Assembly (NCBI GenBank): GCA_014905825.1
Contig: JACGCN010000015.1
Span: forward strand, 682,001 to 746,000
Origin: Lyophyllum atratum
Lineage: Eukaryota; Basidiomycota; Agaricomycetes; Agaricales; Lyophyllaceae
Direction: 5' to 3'
DNA length: 64,000 nt
The notes beneath the pieces are model-generated. The model made no database searches. It saw only the letters and a program-made list of their open reading frames with translations, and was not told where the DNA came from. Position 1 is the first letter of the stretch. Each line of letters starts with the position of its first letter. Below, piece by piece: positions 606-26,711 of the stretch. A program made the position numbers and the translations under genes.

Positions 606-2451
606 CTAGCCTTTCACGGCAACATTGGAGGAGAAATTTGTTTCCGTAATGCTCATCTCCGCCAACGTTTTCGCAGTGCGCCCGAGATCCTGGAACCACA
701 CCTTGCTTAACTCCATGTTTGATACGAGTGCGCCCTCCACCCCCTTCGCTAGCGCGGCGGTTGTTCCCCGGGTTAGCACCGCGACATTCTCAAGACTGAT
801 ATCGGATATCGGGCCAATCTCCCCGGGGTGGCCTTCCTGCACAAAGACCGCCATCCATGTCTGATGCTGGTCGTTATTCCCATGGAGGTGCTCGACCGCC
901 ATATCTACAAACTGGATGTCTTGCGCCGGAGCGTATCCCCACTACGATGGTTGATCAGGAACTGCGATGGTTTGCTGTGGAAGCCGTGTAAGAGCTCACC
1001 TTGTGGTGCACCCCAAGGCCCACAGCTGCGTCGTATACGGTGCTTCCCTCGAACCGGATTTTATGCTGCTGCTGCACAGTCCCTTGGCCGACCTTGAAGC
1101 CGTAGCAATGTGTCCAAGCCAGGCAATTGGTGAACCTGACGTCGTAATTCTGCTGGGGTACGCCTGGGTATGATATGGCGATGTCGGTGGCGCCGTCCCA
1201 TGTCTTGGTACTGAACGAGTCATCGAGCGAGATGGCGACCGTGTTTTTCACGACAACGCTACAATCGGAGACACACAGTGAGTGTCGTGATGACATGGCA
1301 TAGTCCCTGGACTTACTGTTGAGACTCCTGAACATCGACCGCATCGTTCTGTGATGAGCGTGTAAGCTTTTTAGCGCTGGTAATTTCACGACAAGAATAC
1401 CTCTCCAAGATTCATTCTGTTGAAGACCTTGGCATGGTCGATGGTCACGTAGCTTGACCTCGTAGGCACGAGTGTCCACGACCCTCCGTCCCGAATGACA
1501 GGCCCGTCGAACACGAAATTCGTCGTATTAATTGGGACGACGGCATGCGCAATGAACTTGCCCGTCCGCTGCGCATACGCGCCATTGCCGTCAATCGTCC
1601 CGCGCCCAAAGATCTTGATATTTCGGGATTCATATGCTGTGCGGATCCATTCAGTCCCATTGAGGTTTTGCGATGTTTTCTTCCAGTCGGTGGTATAGTC
1701 CGAGCTGTTCGCTGTGAAGCGTAACGCAGAGCTAGGCGAGAGATACAACGAGATGTCGGAGGGTAGGATCAGGTTACCAACGGGGTACACTCCTGGAGGA
1801 ACGTAGACGATGCTGCCCTTTCCCCGGGCACCGGCGGCCTGGATTGCATTTCGGAACGCCGTGGTGCTCAATGTACTTCCAGATGCATCCGCACCGTACT
1901 CTGAGACGACGTTGTATATTCCAACCCCAGAACTAGGCGGGGTGTTCACTTCCAATGGGTCCGCAGCTATGATGAGCTCCTCGACTCCAGAAGAATGGAC
2001 GATGATATACTCAGGTGTCGCGAGCTTGAGTGATATGGTATTTCCAGAAACGACGGCAGTTTTGTCGAAGCCAAAGCGGGCTGGGCTGGTGGTGAATGAA
2101 GTGATGGACGTCTGTTGCTTTGAGGTAATGTTCAAGGTGACCGGGCCATTCCCAAAAGAGAAGTGCGCGTAGGCGTAGCCGTCGAAAGCTAAGTCCACGT
2201 TCTCAGAAGTTGAAGAATGGATTGGATTCAAGTTCGACTTACCATGGACAGGCACCTTTTGACCATTAGCCTGGAGAGAAAAGTATCCGGATTCCGGATA
2301 TATGGGGGCGAGGTTGTATGACTGGATGATAGTGCCAGTTACGCAGGAGAGGTAAAGGAAAGGCGTCAAAATCATAGCTGTGAGGCCAAAATATGAGCAA
2401 CCTATTAGGTGCATGACCCGCAGAAGTCAACTCACCAAGAGCAGCCGCCAT
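606..2451 (-). CDS. secreted right-handed beta-helix (pectin-lyase fold) glycosidase, GH28-like
   Basis: Five exons on the minus strand: 2436-2451, 1401-2377, 1317-1348, 1000-1258 and 606-941. Joining 2436 to 2377 gives an N-terminus MAAALAMILTPFLYLSC, a clear signal peptide. Next comes a beta-rich domain (about residues 25-150), then YNVVSEYGADASG..STTAFRNAIQAA and VYVPPGVYPVGNLIL, the standard start of a pectin-lyase-fold helix. The later rungs contain NDAVDVQESQHVVV, ISLDDSFSTKTW and a GLGVHHKWGY stretch that spans an intron. These resemble but do not match the NTD, DDC, GHG and RIK sites of classical GH28 polygalacturonases, so family membership is by fold. It should act outside the cell on plant or microbial polysaccharide. 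The exon at 1317-1348 is only 32 nt. A retained-looking GT at 2243 was tested and rejected because it breaks the frame. Confidence 0.8.
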
Positions 2452-3214
2452 AATGAAAAGCAGGGAGCAAGTAGCTATGTTGTTCACTTCTTTTAGCCCG
2501 ATACTTATACATATCGACAAGCTTCGAGATCACCGATTTATAGGGGTGTAAGCGTTCAATGTCCATCAGGTAACACGGTCAGTACGGTCCGATCAAATCA
2601 CCTCGACCTGGTTTTGCTGTGGTTAGAATTGATATGTTGGTGCTCGCCGTTGGCGAAGCTGTGGAGTGGAAGGTATTATATCTGTGGTAGAACGCAGGCA
2701 CTTGTCCGACCACGAGAAGTACGTCCCTTGTCTTCAATGGATAATACGAGACTGGCCAGACTTCAAAGGAAATTTCACGCAGGGAGCCAGATGACCTGTA
2801 GTACATATGGTGCTGATTGAAATTCGTGAGAGGGGCGTCATTACATGAATGGCATCAAAAAGAGCTCGTGACACGCATCTCGGCACGAGTTCCTGGTAGT
2901 TAAGTATATGGGCCGGCGAATCCTCATGATTCGCAATTCACACTAACTAAACCTAAGGATCAATGAAACTAGTTAATAGGCTCGCTTGGATCTGAGTGAA
3001 GGACTCACTTGAAGAGGTATTTTACTAGATGTTGGAATTCCCTGCCGGTTTTTAGATCGTATAACACAAACAACAATACAATCACCATATAACTCACTGT
3101 AAAAGACAATCTGCCTGTAATCCTTTGTCGACTAAGAAAATAATGACGGCGTCTTTTAAGCTTCTGAGACTATGGAAGGTTCAACATGGAGAAAAGTTGC
3201 AGGCGGAACTATGG
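2452..3214. other. intergenic, no gene seen
   Basis: Open frames here are short and resemble no family. The stretch holds the upstream region of the beta-helix gene and the 3' side of the F-box gene; an AT-rich run lies at about 3000-3120. Confidence 0.6.
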
Positions 3215-4756
3215 CTACTTACAGTTGACCTCTATGAACGCTTCAACCCCTCTGGCTTCGGTGTACCGGATCTTCTCGAAGGTGCAAGCGCCGGATACCA
3301 GCTGGAGGGACTGATCGGATTCGCTGCCCCCAAATGCAATGACGTGGGATATTTTACGCGTAGACGTCGCGATACAATTTGCCAAAGCCAACATGAAATT
3401 TTCGTTTCTGTCCTGCGGGTTGACGTCCAGGGACCACCGCTCCCAATAGCCATAAAATTCGGATGTTGTCAGCCTACGAAGGGATCGTGGTAAAACGGAG
3501 AACGCATTCGGCGAGAAGCAGCTGTGGTTAGAGACGTGCAAGTGCTCCAACGCAGGCAAACTCTGCAAGACCTGGATGTACGCGCTGTCGAGGTGACTGA
3601 AGACGCTAATGTTATCGAGGCGCAGACTGCGAAGGCTCGCCGTTGGGGCTGGCCCCATATACGGAAGCCGTGGGGTAAAATTCGGGGACTGGTGGAGAAG
3701 CCCACCGATGAATCGGATGTCTAGATGATGAGCGGTGTCCGAACAAACCATCAAGGCGCGGGATATATGGGCTGCTGCATGCTCGTGGTTGCTGTCGAAC
3801 CGGATGGTTTTCAAATCATGAGGGGGTAGGTCCAGTGAGAAGTTCATGACGTGACAATCGCGAAGGTATAGATTCTGCAAGTCCGGGAAGTGACCAAGAA
3901 TAGAAGGTATGATCCCTGGGGCGAATGTCGTGGCAAATGTTGTGGCTCTATGAAGTGGAAGGTCCCACAATGCAAGCGGACACTGGCCGAGGAATAATGT
4001 TTTGAGATTTGGAGTGAGGTGGAGAAACTTCTCCAGACCTTCCTCCAGCACTTTTGACTCGCTCGATAGATGATAATCCAGGGCTGCACCATGTATAAAC
4101 TGCCCTAGCTCGGGACGCGTTCCAAGTGTCCTTAGGAGGAGGCGCAGGCTTGCTGCAGGCCATTTCGTATGCTTTCGCCCCTTCCAGCCGGTAAAATCTA
4201 GCTGCACATCTCGATACAGAATACGCTCAACCAGCCCCCTCAGTGTCGAGCACACTTTGGAGAATGCACTGAGGGCGAAGCGCGCGTGTGAGAAGTCCGA
4301 GTATCGATCATCGATATAACGACTTGCAGCCTCTAGCACCGGGACCTGAGCGCGTAGTGAGGCTGCGATAAGTTCGAGTATTTCCATCGGCAGGTCGAGC
4401 AGAACAATGCGAGGGGGAGGCGCATCGAGGATGGCTGTAGGCGTGCATCAGCCACGAGTAGATCCGGTACCAACTCTGTCTGGCTCACCGTGACTAGAAT
4501 AATTAAGATTAAACTGCGATGGCCCTTTCGAATCTGGCGGCAATTCGTCCTCCACCTCGTCATCCGACCCCGGGAAGTGCTCGTCGTACTCGTACGCGCG
4601 GATCGCATGTATACCGTAGCGACGTGCAAAACGGCTTGCAGGAAGGCCTACACTAGGAGGCCAGTATACTGTCTTCTTAAATATCAGCGGTTTGGTGGTC
4701 GAGAGGTTCGGAGCATTTGTGTCGTCAGGCGCCCCATGGTCCTCGTACACTGTCAA
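3215..4756 (-). CDS. F-box protein with LRR-like tail
   Basis: Two exons, 4489-4756 and 3215-4434, joined over a 54 bp intron (GTGAGC...CTACAG) to give about 495 residues. The F-box core PPRIVLLDLPMEILELIAASL (about residues 92-112) appears only after splicing; the exon-2 frame alone lacks its start. The N-terminal 90 residues include an acidic stretch SDDEVEDELPPDSK. After the F-box the protein has repeated leucine patterns such as LKTLFLGQCPLAL, LQNLYLRDCHVM, LRSLRLDNISVF and LEHLHVSNHSC, like the variable LRR-type substrate-recognition part of fungal F-box proteins. The role is inferred to be an SCF ubiquitin-ligase adaptor binding Skp1 through the F-box; the substrate is unknown. Such genes are numerous in agaricomycetes. 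Confidence 0.8.
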
Positions 4757-5242
4757 CGATTGAGCTCAGACGGTTAGAGCGGATGAGGAGCGATCATACT
4801 ATCAATGGAGACCTGGCCACGAACCGCCGCGCAGCAACGGGCTTGTAGAAGGGAAATACTCGATCCTGGTGGTCGTTATTTGTCCTTGGCCAGGCAGGCC
4901 TTGACATATCCGTTGATTGCTGCAAAAGCTGGCACAAGAAGATAAGATTAGATTCATCTCCAGCGTTGATGAGAATAGCCCTATATCTGTCATTGATAAT
5001 TTTCCGCATCGCTCGAAGTCATTCAAATCACGCCGGCCCATAGGAATCATGAAGTAGAATCGTGAATTGATGGCGTAGTATAAAGTAACAACAGAGAGGA
5101 TTATACGAGAGTACAGACAACAACGGATGAGGGAACTCGAGTGGTGGCACATTGACACAAGACAGAACGTAACCATATGAACAGGGTGTAGGTATGATGC
5201 AAGAAAGGGAAGGGGAGAAGAGAAGAGGTTGGGACGGAGACT
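4757..5242. other. intergenic, 3' flank of EF-3
   Basis: An open frame of 124 codons at 4802-5176 on the minus strand has no recognisable domain and is probably chance. The stretch most likely holds the EF-3 3' UTR and the F-box promoter. Confidence 0.5.
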
Positions 5243-8200
5243 CTAAAGCTCGTCGTCGGTGATCTCCTCACCACGCTTCTTCCGTGCCATACGCTCCTTC
5301 TTGAGCTGTGGGAAGAAATCTATGTAAGTATCGAAAGACATATATATGAATAAGCGAATGACGAACCTTCCGTGCTTCCGACGCTGTGAGCTTCTTCTGC
5401 TTCTTGTTGTCGATCTTGTTGCCCATAGCATCGTACATTACATCTTCTTCACCCTCGTTCTTGTCAATACGGGGGCCGGAACCCTGTCCCTCGACCCAGT
5501 TGTGGCCGGAGGCCTCCAAGCGACCATCGCGCATGGCCCAAACTCTGAACAATGGAATGAGTCAATGATCAAGGAAAGACACGATGAGGACGTACTCTTT
5601 GCACAGCGACTCGGAGAAGTCACGGTTGTGGGTGATGACGAGCACACCACCCTCGAAGACCTTGAGGGCCTCGATGAGCGCAGCGAGCGACTCACGATCG
5701 AGGTAGTCTGAATGTCAAAGTCAGCTGAGAGATCTAACTTTGGAAAGCAAAAAACGCACTGGTAGGCTCATCCAAGCAGATGATGTGGGGACGACGCCAT
5801 GTAGCAGCGCCAAGGACGATCTTGACCTTCTGACCACCAGAGAGACCACGCATGGTGTTGTGCGAGACGAACTCGGGCTCGAGACCGAAGTCAGCGAAGT
5901 GCTTCTCAATCTCCCGACGAACGAGGGGACGGAGAAGACCGAGACGCTGGGCCTCACGGGTGTCGACCTCGAGAACTTTCTGTAAACAGGAAAAAATCAA
6001 TATCAAGACAGTGAGTTGACGATGGACGAGGAGACGAACCTTCTCGTAGCCACGCTTGATGAGATCATCACGGGGCAGCCAGACATTCTCAGACGAGGAA
6101 AGGGCCTTGAACGAGACTTCGTACTCGTAGGACTGCTTCAGCTTCTTGCGGGCAACGATCTCGTCGATGATCCTCTTCGCGCCCTCGACGATGACGATGG
6201 AGCCATCCTTCATCTTCTGTGCCTCCTCCTCGGAGATCTGGCGATTGGCCTTCATCATCTCCTCCAAATCCTCACCAGTCTGGTAACGCCACAGCATGTA
6301 CTCGAGGGGCGTCTTGTCGAGATGGTTATCGATATGGTGGAAGGCGTGCTGAGCAACGTAGCCGATGACCAAGTTAGGGTGCTTCCAGGTCTCTCCACCC
6401 TTGTTGGGCTCCATGTCGCCGATGAGGAGCTTGACGAGGGTCGACTTGCCGGAACCGTTAGGTCCGAGAACGGCAACACGGGAAGACAGGGAGACTTGGA
6501 GCGTGATGTCCCAGAGCTGCTGGACGGGCTGGGTCGGGTATTGGAAGCCGACTTTGCGCCTGAAGACGAAAAAATAGAGTAAGTCACTTGTAACGAAGAA
6601 GGCATGAGGCAACGCACATCTTGAGCAAACTCTTCTCCTTGGTCTTAACACCCTCAAGCAGAGGAGGGTCGGGGAGCTTGAACCTGTAGTCCTCAGCCGC
6701 CTCGAGAGTGTAGTACGACTTGGCCTCAGGGACCTGGGCGACGAACTTCTCGAGGTTACCGCGATATCTGCGGAGCTTGAAACGGTTGAGATGCAGAACG
6801 TCGGTGATGGTGTTGTTCAAGAAGCCGGAGTCGTGCGAGACGATGACTGTAAGTTTAGATTAGTAACTTAGGCAATATGGATGATCGAAGAACATACTGG
6901 AAGTGCAAGTCTTGAGGTTGGTCAGGTAGCCCTCCAACCATGCAACGTTGACGACGTCAAGATGGTTAGTCGGCTCGTCGAGGAGCAGGATGTCAGCCTT
7001 GAAGAGCATGGCACGAGCAAGGGCAAGCTTCATCTTCCAACCACCAGACAAGCTACCGATGGCCTGAGCTTGACGCTCATCGGAGAAGCCGACGGAAGCG
7101 AGGGTTTCGATGATCTCCTCGCGGCCGGCTTGGATGCGGGTGTCCGAAACAATAAATTCGAGGACGGAAGTGTCTTCCTCGCTACCATCGATATCGTGCT
7201 CGACGTAGAAGGTGCGGACTTCATCGGGAGAGGGGAAGCCCTCGACTTGGCTGTAGGCGAGAAAGTGAGCAAGCTGATGTAAGCATGAGATGCATGATGA
7301 CATACCCGTTGGTGATAGCCCTCATGAGGGTCGACTTTCCGGTACCGTTCTTACCGCACAGACCGTAGCGGTGGCCACGCTTGAGACGGAGGGTAGCGGT
7401 GTTGAGCAGGATCTTGGCACCATAAGCCAGGGAGAATTGGCAGTTGCAAAGGTCTTCGCCTTCCTCCTCATCCTCGAGCACCTCCTCTTCCTCGAGACCT
7501 TCAGTCGCAGAGCGGACGACCCATTCGCGAGTAACAGTGACGGGATCGGGGGTGGCAGAGACGAAGGCGAGGAAGGGCGCGAGATCATCCCACTGAGGAA
7601 CCTCGAAATTCTTGGCGTTGACGAGGTTCGCGGCGAGGTGGGAAGTGTAGATGGTCGAGACGTGAGCAACGGAGATCTCGGAACCAAGCTTCTTGTAGAT
7701 GGCGACCAGGGAGTGGGCCAAAGCACCACCCTCGGCTTGCTTGAGGGGAGCAAGATCGGAACCATCACCGTTGGGGACCTCACCGACTTGACGGAGGGTG
7801 GCGATGGCCTTGTTGACAACACCGCGGGCTTCTGGGTCACCAATGGTTTGCTCCACCTTAATGAGGCCTGGGAGAAGCTTCGGCAGGAAGGGGCGGACGG
7901 TAACGGGGGAGTCGACGAGCTTAGCCATGTTGTCGACGATACTAAAAATACAGTTAGTTTCCATGCTGACACATCTTAAGAGTAAAAAAAAACTTACACT
8001 GCGACCTTACGCTTGGTGGCGGTCAACTTCTCGGAGAGACCACGAGACAGCAGGGGAACCATAAGGGATAGGGTGGGCGAGTCTACTTCGGAAACGAATG
8101 TGGTGGCCGAGAGGAGGGCGATGGTACCAGGCACCTCCTCGACGGGATTAATGAGAGCCTTGATAAGAGCCGGAATAAAGCGTTCTATGTCCTTGTTTGA

Positions 8201-25023: not shown

Positions 25024-25119
25024 TCCCTCTTAGCTCAGTGGTAGAGCGCGTCACTAGTATTCCGCAACAAATACTTCACAGTCTATGACGAGGTCAGTCG
25101 TTCAAGTCGGCTAGAGGGA
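25024..25119 (+). tRNA. tRNA-Thr(AGT), intron-containing
   Basis: The cloverleaf can be drawn in full. The acceptor TCCCTCT pairs with AGAGGGA. The D arm is GCTC-AGTGGTA-GAGC. The anticodon stem CGTCA/TGACG encloses loop CTAGTA-intron-A with anticodon AGT. The variable loop is AGGTC, and the T arm is AGTCG-TTCAAGT-CGGCT. The intron is 25 nt, directly 3' of position 37 as in eukaryotic nuclear tRNAs. The A box (TAGCTCAGTGGT) and B box (CGTTCAAGTC) needed for Pol III are present. The T stem uses a T-G pair. It is the first of a cluster of related copies. Confidence 0.9.
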
Positions 25120-25279
25120 AATGTTGGATTATGTATCGCTTTTTTTCCGTCTTCATCTTCCCTCATTGTCTCTTTCCGGAAGGGGATTACCAAGGGACTC
25201 GAGAAGGGGGGGGGGGAGTGCGCATGGAGGTCGTATTCCCTCTTAGCTCAGTGGTAGAGCGCGTCACTAGTATATACTG

Positions 25280-25297
25280 TAAGGCTCCAACCGTACT
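25280..25297 (+). repeat. left terminal inverted repeat of hAT element
   Basis: Eighteen bases beginning TAAGGCTCC, a perfect reverse complement of 26155-26172. Immediately preceded by the target duplication ATATACTG. Confidence 0.9.
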
Positions 25298-25839
25298 ATC
25301 TATTTACCATATATACAGTAGATACCGTATATGTTTACGTATATGTATAGGCCTGTTGGAAAAATTGTCCTATACAGTAGATATACAGTATAGCATATGG
25401 TTATACTGTTAATTTTTCCCGTCCAGTAAATCAGTAGCTTTCCTGGGGCCTAGGTTGATTTCGCAGTGATAGGTCGCAATCGAGGAGGTGTCAGCAAATG
25501 ACGAGAGAACGAGGGGTGTTTTTGGACAAGGCGTAACCAAAAACACCTCTCGGCAACCTCTCGGATCGGGCTTGGCCTATTTTTAGATCGTCCACAGCGA
25601 GCCCAAAATTGTAACACGTTGTGTGCGTTCTTCTGACATATCTCAGTGACAAGTCTCATTCTTTGTGAGCAGAGCCTTTTAGACTGTCAGGTCAGACACT
25701 GGACAATGCAGGGAACATGTCCCTTTCATAAGCAAGCAATTTCGAACTTACATGTCCAAGTTGATTGAAGATCGGTCATCCTTGGGTCGTCCACCGCATA
25801 ATAATTTATTGCTCAAAATCTTGAGGTAGTTTTAGGTAG

Positions 25840-26057
25840 TTTTACGAGACTTTTTGGCCATACCAGCAACAACTGTATCCGTCGAGCGCACCTTCTCAAA
25901 ATTACGACACACTGCATCTCTGCGGATCTCAGCAGCCCCTGGAAGGCCGAGACAATCAGTCAAGATCTGTTGTCGAAGGTATGGATTCGGTCGGGGTTAT
26001 TTGATGTCAACGAGCCCAAGGTTCCAGTCGGAAAGCATGCTCGATCTGACCCTATAA
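25840..26057 (+). pseudogene. hAT transposase C-terminal dimerisation remnant
   Basis: One frame reads PATTVSVERTFSKLRHT, the conserved start of the hAT C-terminal dimerisation domain (A-x-S-x-x-E-R-x-F-S pattern). A second frame takes over with SADLSSPWKAETISQDLL and KVWIRSGLF, the usual following part of that domain. The switch of frame shows a small indel, so the coding capacity is lost. The catalytic core is missing altogether. Confidence 0.65.
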
Positions 26058-26154
26058 CAACTGTCTACATCATACCGTATAACCATATATATACTGTATA
26101 TACACACTAAATAACTGTATCCGTATATCTAGGCCCTTGGTCGTATACGGATAC

Positions 26155-26172
26155 AGTACGGTTGGAGCCTTA
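26155..26172 (-). repeat. right terminal inverted repeat of hAT element
   Basis: Reads AGTACGGTTGGAGCCTTA on the plus strand, the perfect inverse of the left end, followed at once by the second copy of ATATACTG. Confidence 0.9.
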
Positions 26173-26344
26173 ATATACTGAGTTGCGAACGTGTACATGA
26201 CGAGGTCAGTCGTTCAAGTCGGCTAGAGGGAAATATTGCCTGCCGACTGCAATTTTGCCTTTTTCCATCTTCACATTTCCTCCTTGTACCTTTGCGCTCG
26301 GGGCTATCAAGCCAAGGTATGAGGAGTGGGGAAGGAGGGTGTAC

Positions 26345-26432
26345 TCCCTCTTAGCTCAGTGGTAGAGCGCGTCACTAGTATATTGTTCACTTGCTTTATG
26401 ACGAGGTCAGTCGTTCAAGTCGGCTAGAGGGA
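26345..26432 (+). tRNA. tRNA-Thr(AGT), intron-containing
   Basis: Exon sequence is the same as in the copy at 25024-25119, with a 17-nt intron of unrelated sequence after position 37. Acceptor, D, anticodon and T stems all pair. Spacers between the copies also share a recognisable layout (CTTTTTCC..CTTCATCTTCC-like upstream blocks), pointing to tandem duplication of a unit of about 0.2 kb before the transposon arrived. Confidence 0.9.
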
Positions 26433-26616: not shown

Positions 26617-26711
26617 TCCCCTCCCAGCTCAGTGGTGGAGCCCGCCACTACTGTGTTTCCGAAGAATGCAGTGGTCAGGACGGGGTTGGTCGTTCGAATC
26701 GGCCGGGGGAA
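26617..26711 (+). pseudogene. diverged tRNA-Thr-like pseudogene
   Basis: Aligns along its length with the three upstream tRNA-Thr genes (CCAGCTCAGTGGTGGAGC for the 5' half; GGACGGGGTTGGTCGTTCGAAT for the 3' half). The anticodon stem no longer pairs, the anticodon position reads ACT, and one base is missing in the 3' acceptor strand. Interestingly its T loop (TTCGAAT) is closer to the eukaryotic consensus than that of the intact copies. Confidence 0.65.

Follow-up and report, generated by a model that had tools for sequence, protein, structure and literature searches.

A hAT transposon family found behind tRNA genes in the mushroom Lyophyllum atratum, with one copy splitting a tRNA-Thr gene

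In the genome of the mushroom Lyophyllum atratum, all 17 copies that we found of a non-autonomous hAT transposon family have the 3′ end of a tRNA gene facing them, at distances of 57–208 bp (median 84 bp; one genome). We consider it very probable that the family integrates within an interval behind tRNA genes, whatever the tRNA or the local sequence, and that this placement reflects targeting at integration. With more reserve, we favor the proposal that position-specific integration behind tRNA genes evolved in a eukaryotic hAT transposase through its tethering to the RNA polymerase III (Pol III) transcription or termination complex, in convergence with the TRE3 and Skipper-2 retrotransposons.

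One copy lies in the 64,000-nucleotide stretch of contig JACGCN010000015.1 analyzed here (assembly GCA_014905825.1, positions 682,001 to 746,000), which we call the window, within an array of tRNA-Thr(AGT) genes (Table 1). A sequence-only reading of this DNA had described a hAT element with perfect 18 bp inverted ends and an exact 8 bp duplication, nested in the intron of a tRNA-Thr(AGT) gene. Our re-measurement bears this out: the terminal inverted repeats (TIRs) match at 18 of 18 positions, the target site duplication (TSD) ATATACTG is present on both sides, and both a hAT relic inside the element and an empty paralogous site agree with the description. The element itself does lie wholly within the intron, as described; the left TSD, however, begins on the last base of exon 1 (its first A is tRNA position 37) and so straddles the exon 1/intron border. 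Removing the element and one TSD copy from gene 2, whose intron now measures 924 nt, restores an intron of 23 nt, as had been stated, similar to those of the sister genes (25 and 17 nt). The exons were likewise correctly read as unchanged, both being letter-identical in all 21 tRNA-Thr(AGT) genes recovered. Introns of the 20 uninterrupted genes are 13–29 nt long and mostly different, with a few common to paralogues.

A paralogous cluster of three genes in the same order and with alignable flanks is found on contig C74. Its middle gene represents the empty site: it has no element and a single copy of the target, which differs from ATATACTG by one base. Downstream of the array, at positions 26619-26711 of the window, there is one more, fourth sequence that resembles a tRNA gene and contains stretches like an A and a B box, although it is called by neither Rfam nor ARAGORN; a similar tRNA-like sequence also occurs downstream of the C74 cluster (locus L025). 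One window protein has its best-matching named relative in Tricholomella constricta, an agaric of the Lyophyllaceae (62% identity).

Table 1. Features of the tRNA-Thr(AGT) array and the inserted element (window coordinates)
Feature	Position	Strand	Basis or remark
tRNA-Thr(AGT) gene 1; intron 25 nt	25024..25119	+	Rfam RF00005, 50.5 bits; exons equal those of the other 20 genes
T7 run behind gene 1, presumably its Pol III terminator	25140..25146	+	sequence
tRNA-Thr(AGT) gene 2, whole split gene	25237..26231	+	bounds confirmed
Gene 2 exon 1, with A box	25237..25272	+	sequence; identical in 21/21 genes
Left TSD ATATACTG, overlapping exon 1 by its first A	25272..25279	.	sequence
Non-autonomous hAT element, 893 bp	25280..26172	+	family of at least 17 genomic copies
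Left TIR TAAGGCTCCAACCGTACT	25280..25297	+	18/18 match to right end
hAT transposase C-terminus relic, stop-interrupted in window copy, open in L014	25806..25979	+	sequence search; PF05699 match in L014
Right TIR	26155..26172	-	18/18 match to left end
Right TSD ATATACTG	26173..26180	.	sequence
Gene 2 exon 2, with B box	26197..26231	+	sequence
tRNA-Thr(AGT) gene 3; intron 17 nt	26345..26432	+	Rfam, 51.2 bits

The open stretch of copy L014 matches the hAT dimerisation domain PF05699 over 25 residues (24 bits, E 3.3e-5; cut-off 21.4). Because of this relic, together with the 8-bp TSDs and short TIRs, the family is assigned to hAT; the features matched are the 8-bp TSD, the 18-bp TIRs (TAAGGCTCCAACCGTACT) and the dimerisation domain, the last as a relic only. 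Judged from its sequences the 17-copy family is non-autonomous as far as found: none of the 57 PF05699 places in the genome lies inside a family copy, and no autonomous copy was found among them. The relic used as a protein query against the genome matched family copies only and, against a protein database, had no match at E 0.01.

BLAST searches revealed 17 genomic copies of the TAAGGCTCCAACC family, the window copy included, and this count is a lower bound (at least 17). The queries were the window copy and two copies 12-15% different from it, and each returned the same 17 copies; a further locus, L039, overlaps copy L023 and was left out of the count. A search for the TIRs gave 33 ends, two per copy except in L016, whose left tip is gone. 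Beyond these, there were four TIR-like sites with two mismatches, against five for a reversed-pattern control. Two of the four (on contigs C61 and C24) fall in a region that these contigs share, where no transposon is visible and ARAGORN calls no tRNA; the other two are C82:98405 and C100:37029. The search for further copies with the same ends that the sequence-only reading had called for thus yields 16 more that share the borders (one lacking the left tip). Since these 16 share the ends and exact 8-bp TSDs flank 12 of the 17 copies, the ends of the window element are not a matter of chance.

All 12 exact TSDs, which stem from independent insertions, differ in sequence and have only a weak consensus. 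In three other copies a short filler intervenes, in L021 the TSD is unclear, and in L016 the left end is missing. Of the 15 aligned copies free of large nested inserts, nine belong to a young group with 96.6-99.7% pairwise identity (gaps ignored) and the other six are 11–16% different from it. With six private substitutions in 854 compared sites, the window element fits the earlier description of the event as recent, or at least fairly so.

The fillers (CGAG, ATT and CCTG; 3–4 nt) stand at the right end, before a TSD that lacks its first base, in L003 (1501-2389), L018 (1002-1829) and L022 (1001-7094), and in these three of the 17 copies they correspond, wholly or for the most part, to the first bases of the TSD in reverse complement. 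Excision of hAT elements proceeds through hairpins on the flanking DNA and leaves palindromic scars behind. The fillers are what one might expect if cutting, hairpin formation and rejoining had taken place at a single end with the element still in place, a resemblance that is suggestive only. The two longest copies, L022 and L023, were considered as autonomous partners and ruled out, their length being due to nested elements. In L022 this is a Copia element with two identical 402-bp LTRs (1433-6696). L023 carries an insert of ~6.9 kb (680-7571), possibly Crypton-like, with an ORF matching NDC10_II (PF16787, 62.7 bits), followed by a second insert of ~1.5 kb with inverted ends.

Measured from the 3′ end of the facing tRNA gene, the copies lie at 57, 59, 64, 66, 71, 73, 80, 80, 84, 92, 93, 95, 111, 121, 138, 160 and 208 bp; 15 of the 17 are within 140 bp, and the tail of the distribution consists of the window copy at 160 bp and L024 at 208 bp. 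A default Rfam scan supplied the facing tRNA gene for 14 of the 16 copies outside the window. Those of L005 (47.4 bits) and L024 (54.3 bits) came from a permissive Rfam scan and ARAGORN, and gene 1 is the facing gene of the window copy. At every one of the 17 loci a run of at least five T, presumably the Pol III terminator, lies between the tRNA gene and the element. Only the window copy is inside a tRNA gene (gene 2); the other 16 are outside.

By sequence the adjoining tRNA genes are of eleven kinds. Arg accounts for three of the genes, Thr(AGT), Cys, Ile and a Val-like kind for two each, and six kinds occur singly; the names are our own reading or that of ARAGORN, and some are uncertain. 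Our script returned 12 groups, having split the window and L017 genes, both Thr(AGT), by a one-base shift. The anticodon names given by ARAGORN are unreliable, as L021 (named Trp) and L023 (named Met) adjoin the same tRNA as L003 (Arg-ACG), and the tRNAs of L005 and L007, named Thr, read as Val. Contigs C64, C75, C79 and C82 carry tRNA genes of one and the same Rfam score (58.8 bits), four to seven per contig and mostly clustered; the two of them that lie in examined loci are identical at both ends and are called tRNA-Ile by ARAGORN.

The orientation of the elements relative to the tRNA gene (12 same, five opposite) is not decisive. The scatter of insertions is similar whether measured from the tRNA 3′ end, the tRNA 5′ start or the first T run (sd 40-41; T-run positions were set manually, and for L005 and L024 they are those of T4 runs), and none of the three stands out as the tightest anchor. 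At two loci a tRNA gene also presents its 5′ side to the element: at 87 bp in L005, nearer than the 3′-facing gene at 111 bp, and at 172 bp in the window, where this is gene 3. A single locus can therefore be ambiguous as to the facing side; the whole set is not. The B box is kept in all 17 tRNA genes, T runs head the list of 6-mers in the trailers by frequency, and no external B box other than gene 2's own was found in the trailers and the first 150 bp beyond the element at the 17 loci.

Leaving gene 2 apart, the nearest tRNA gene faces the element with its 3′ end in 16 of 17 copies (one-sided sign test, 1.4e-4), a result independent of tRNA gene density. The chance that 17 of 17 copies fall within 213 bp on the 3′ side, a limit chosen after the data were seen, depends on an assumed number of tRNA genes: it is ~5e-37 with 2,234 genes, the number of first-look candidates and a generous figure rather than a proven maximum, and 6e-26 with 10,000. 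We also compiled 85 tRNA places from searches made without the element (63, plus 22 queried with the window tRNA genes). Five of the 17 copies have one of these within 250 bp, or four of 16 when the window copy, which depends on the listing query, is left out. By contrast, no listed tRNA place lies within 10 kb of any of 57 other hAT-domain places or of any of 37 Copia LTR places, these control positions being domain or LTR coordinates rather than mapped transposon ends and many of the Copia LTRs being pairs of one element. In showing a significant association that is restricted in position, the family resembles the functional class of tRNA-gene-targeted mobile elements, a class also marked by interaction of the integration machinery with Pol III factors.

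How might such placement come about? In its simplest form, our proposal is that the mobilising transposase would be tethered to one of the factors that make up the Pol III complex once it is assembled for transcription or termination; alternatively, the anchor could be a chromatin state that the complex leaves on its 3′ side. Integration would then occur 57–208 bp 3′ of the mature tRNA end, past the presumed terminator T run. The weak TSD consensus, the conserved B boxes, the lack of an external B box other than gene 2's own and the T-run trailers argue that what is recognized is an assembled Pol III gene and not the DNA sequence at the insertion point. Such recognition may be likened to that of TRE5-A of Dictyostelium, for which B boxes and probably bound Pol III complexes are described as required in the accessible text of PMC5006619. 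As every copy found here is non-autonomous, the tethering itself is something that we infer. For the window copy the targeting gene would be gene 1, the insertion having taken place 160 bp behind it; because gene 2 starts 117 bp behind gene 1, within the landing interval, the insertion fell into gene 2, and its position in an intron would be collateral.

A general preference for open chromatin could also bring elements close to tRNA genes, if the transposase simply entered nucleosome-free DNA and the tRNA flanks were merely open. The hAT element Hermes reportedly prefers nucleosome-free regions, and L005 and the window copy, which also lie no more than 172 bp upstream of a tRNA gene, would suit such a preference. 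Pol II promoters, however, far outnumber tRNA genes, yet all 17 copies adjoin a tRNA gene and the nearest one is 3′-facing in 16, and we regard this explanation as rather unlikely. Still less credible to us is that insertion is random and that copies persist only in harmless tRNA 3′ flanks, even though sites behind tRNA genes have been argued to be harmless in compact dictyostelid genomes (PMC5006619, accessible text). At 92 and 71 bp behind tRNA genes, the two copies with the least divergence (0.1-0.2% from the others' consensus) are placed like the older ones, which are 11–16% off the young group, and the other repeats that we checked are not near listed tRNA genes.

The sequence-only reading had suggested that a tRNA intron may itself be a tolerated landing site and that the giant intron might still be spliced. 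The unchanged exons of gene 2 would agree with this, as would the fact that ARAGORN, allowed introns of up to 3000 nt, reads gene 2 as a tRNA-Thr with a 909-nt intron. But the feature common to the copies is the 3′ flank of a tRNA gene, and a tRNA intron holds only one of the 17. Moreover, the A and B boxes of gene 2 are now 968 bp apart, as against 61-69 bp in the sister genes, and the element places four TTTTT runs on the tRNA sense strand between them; for these reasons transcription of gene 2 and splicing of its giant intron seem unlikely, and the gene has probably been silenced by the insertion and is inactive. Nor do the intact exons speak for continuing selection, as had been entertained: under neutrality the probability that 71 exon bases remain unchanged at the age of the element is P=0.61, so that their integrity is to be expected and is no evidence on selection. 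Taken together, we hold it to be very improbable that a tRNA intron is itself the landing site, and we return to targeting of the tRNA 3′ side.

Several known systems resemble this targeting in part, as judged from the accessible text of the papers cited. Like the family described here, two kinds of retrotransposon in Dictyostelia, TRE3 (non-LTR) and Skipper-2 (LTR), occupy the 3′ side of tRNA genes, the former integrating 40-150 bp (PMC5911963) and the latter, across species, 7-136 bp (PMC5006619) downstream. Those are retrotransposons of amoebae, whereas ours is a cut-and-paste hAT of a mushroom with TIRs and 8-bp TSDs; in addition, TRE3 can use an external B box (PMC5911963), while none was found at the hAT family loci except gene 2's own. 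According to a 2018 review, dictyostelid genomes are the only ones in which retrotransposons insert downstream of tRNA genes, and Saccharomyces cerevisiae shows no such insertion (PMC5911963).

DNA transposons of the Dada group, whose targets include tRNA genes (PMC3706591; PMC8869645), share with our family an association with such genes. Dada elements, however, insert at specific sites inside small RNA genes with 6-7-bp TSDs, and in Dada-U6 and Dada-U1 no TIRs were found (PMC3706591). In contrast, our family has TSDs of 8 bp and TIRs of 18 bp, and 16 of its 17 copies sit outside the tRNA gene, where both the distance and the sequence of the insertion site vary; membership in Dada was rejected on the grounds of location, TSD length and the presence of TIRs.

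Among fungi, the yeast hATs (Rover, and the hAT-derived gene RSF1) belong to the same superfamily; unlike the mushroom family, they are not reported to insert behind tRNA genes in the accounts compared. Sites of gene gain in yeast have been linked to tRNA genes, and one of the gained genes is hAT-derived (a 2009 study; PMC2675101, accessible text). De novo insertions of Mu and P near tRNA or rRNA genes are described in the available part of PMC7337890 as largely resembling random loci, with an exception named for Mu. The literature searched, which lay largely outside subscription journals, shows no hAT that is directed to the 3′ side of tRNA genes; as far as this search extends, the family would be the first known case of such targeting both among hATs and among fungal elements.

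Known targeting of tRNA genes has been the province of retrotransposons, and of Dada elements inside RNA genes. If our interpretation is correct, a cut-and-paste transposase can gain the same safe-haven strategy as the tRNA-targeting retrotransposons, and the family would be a naturally targeted relative of the hAT tools used in gene delivery. It also makes it possible to test what feature sets apart the 3′ side of an active Pol III gene. In the window, targeting behind gene 1 would explain how a tRNA gene came to have an intron of 924 nt.
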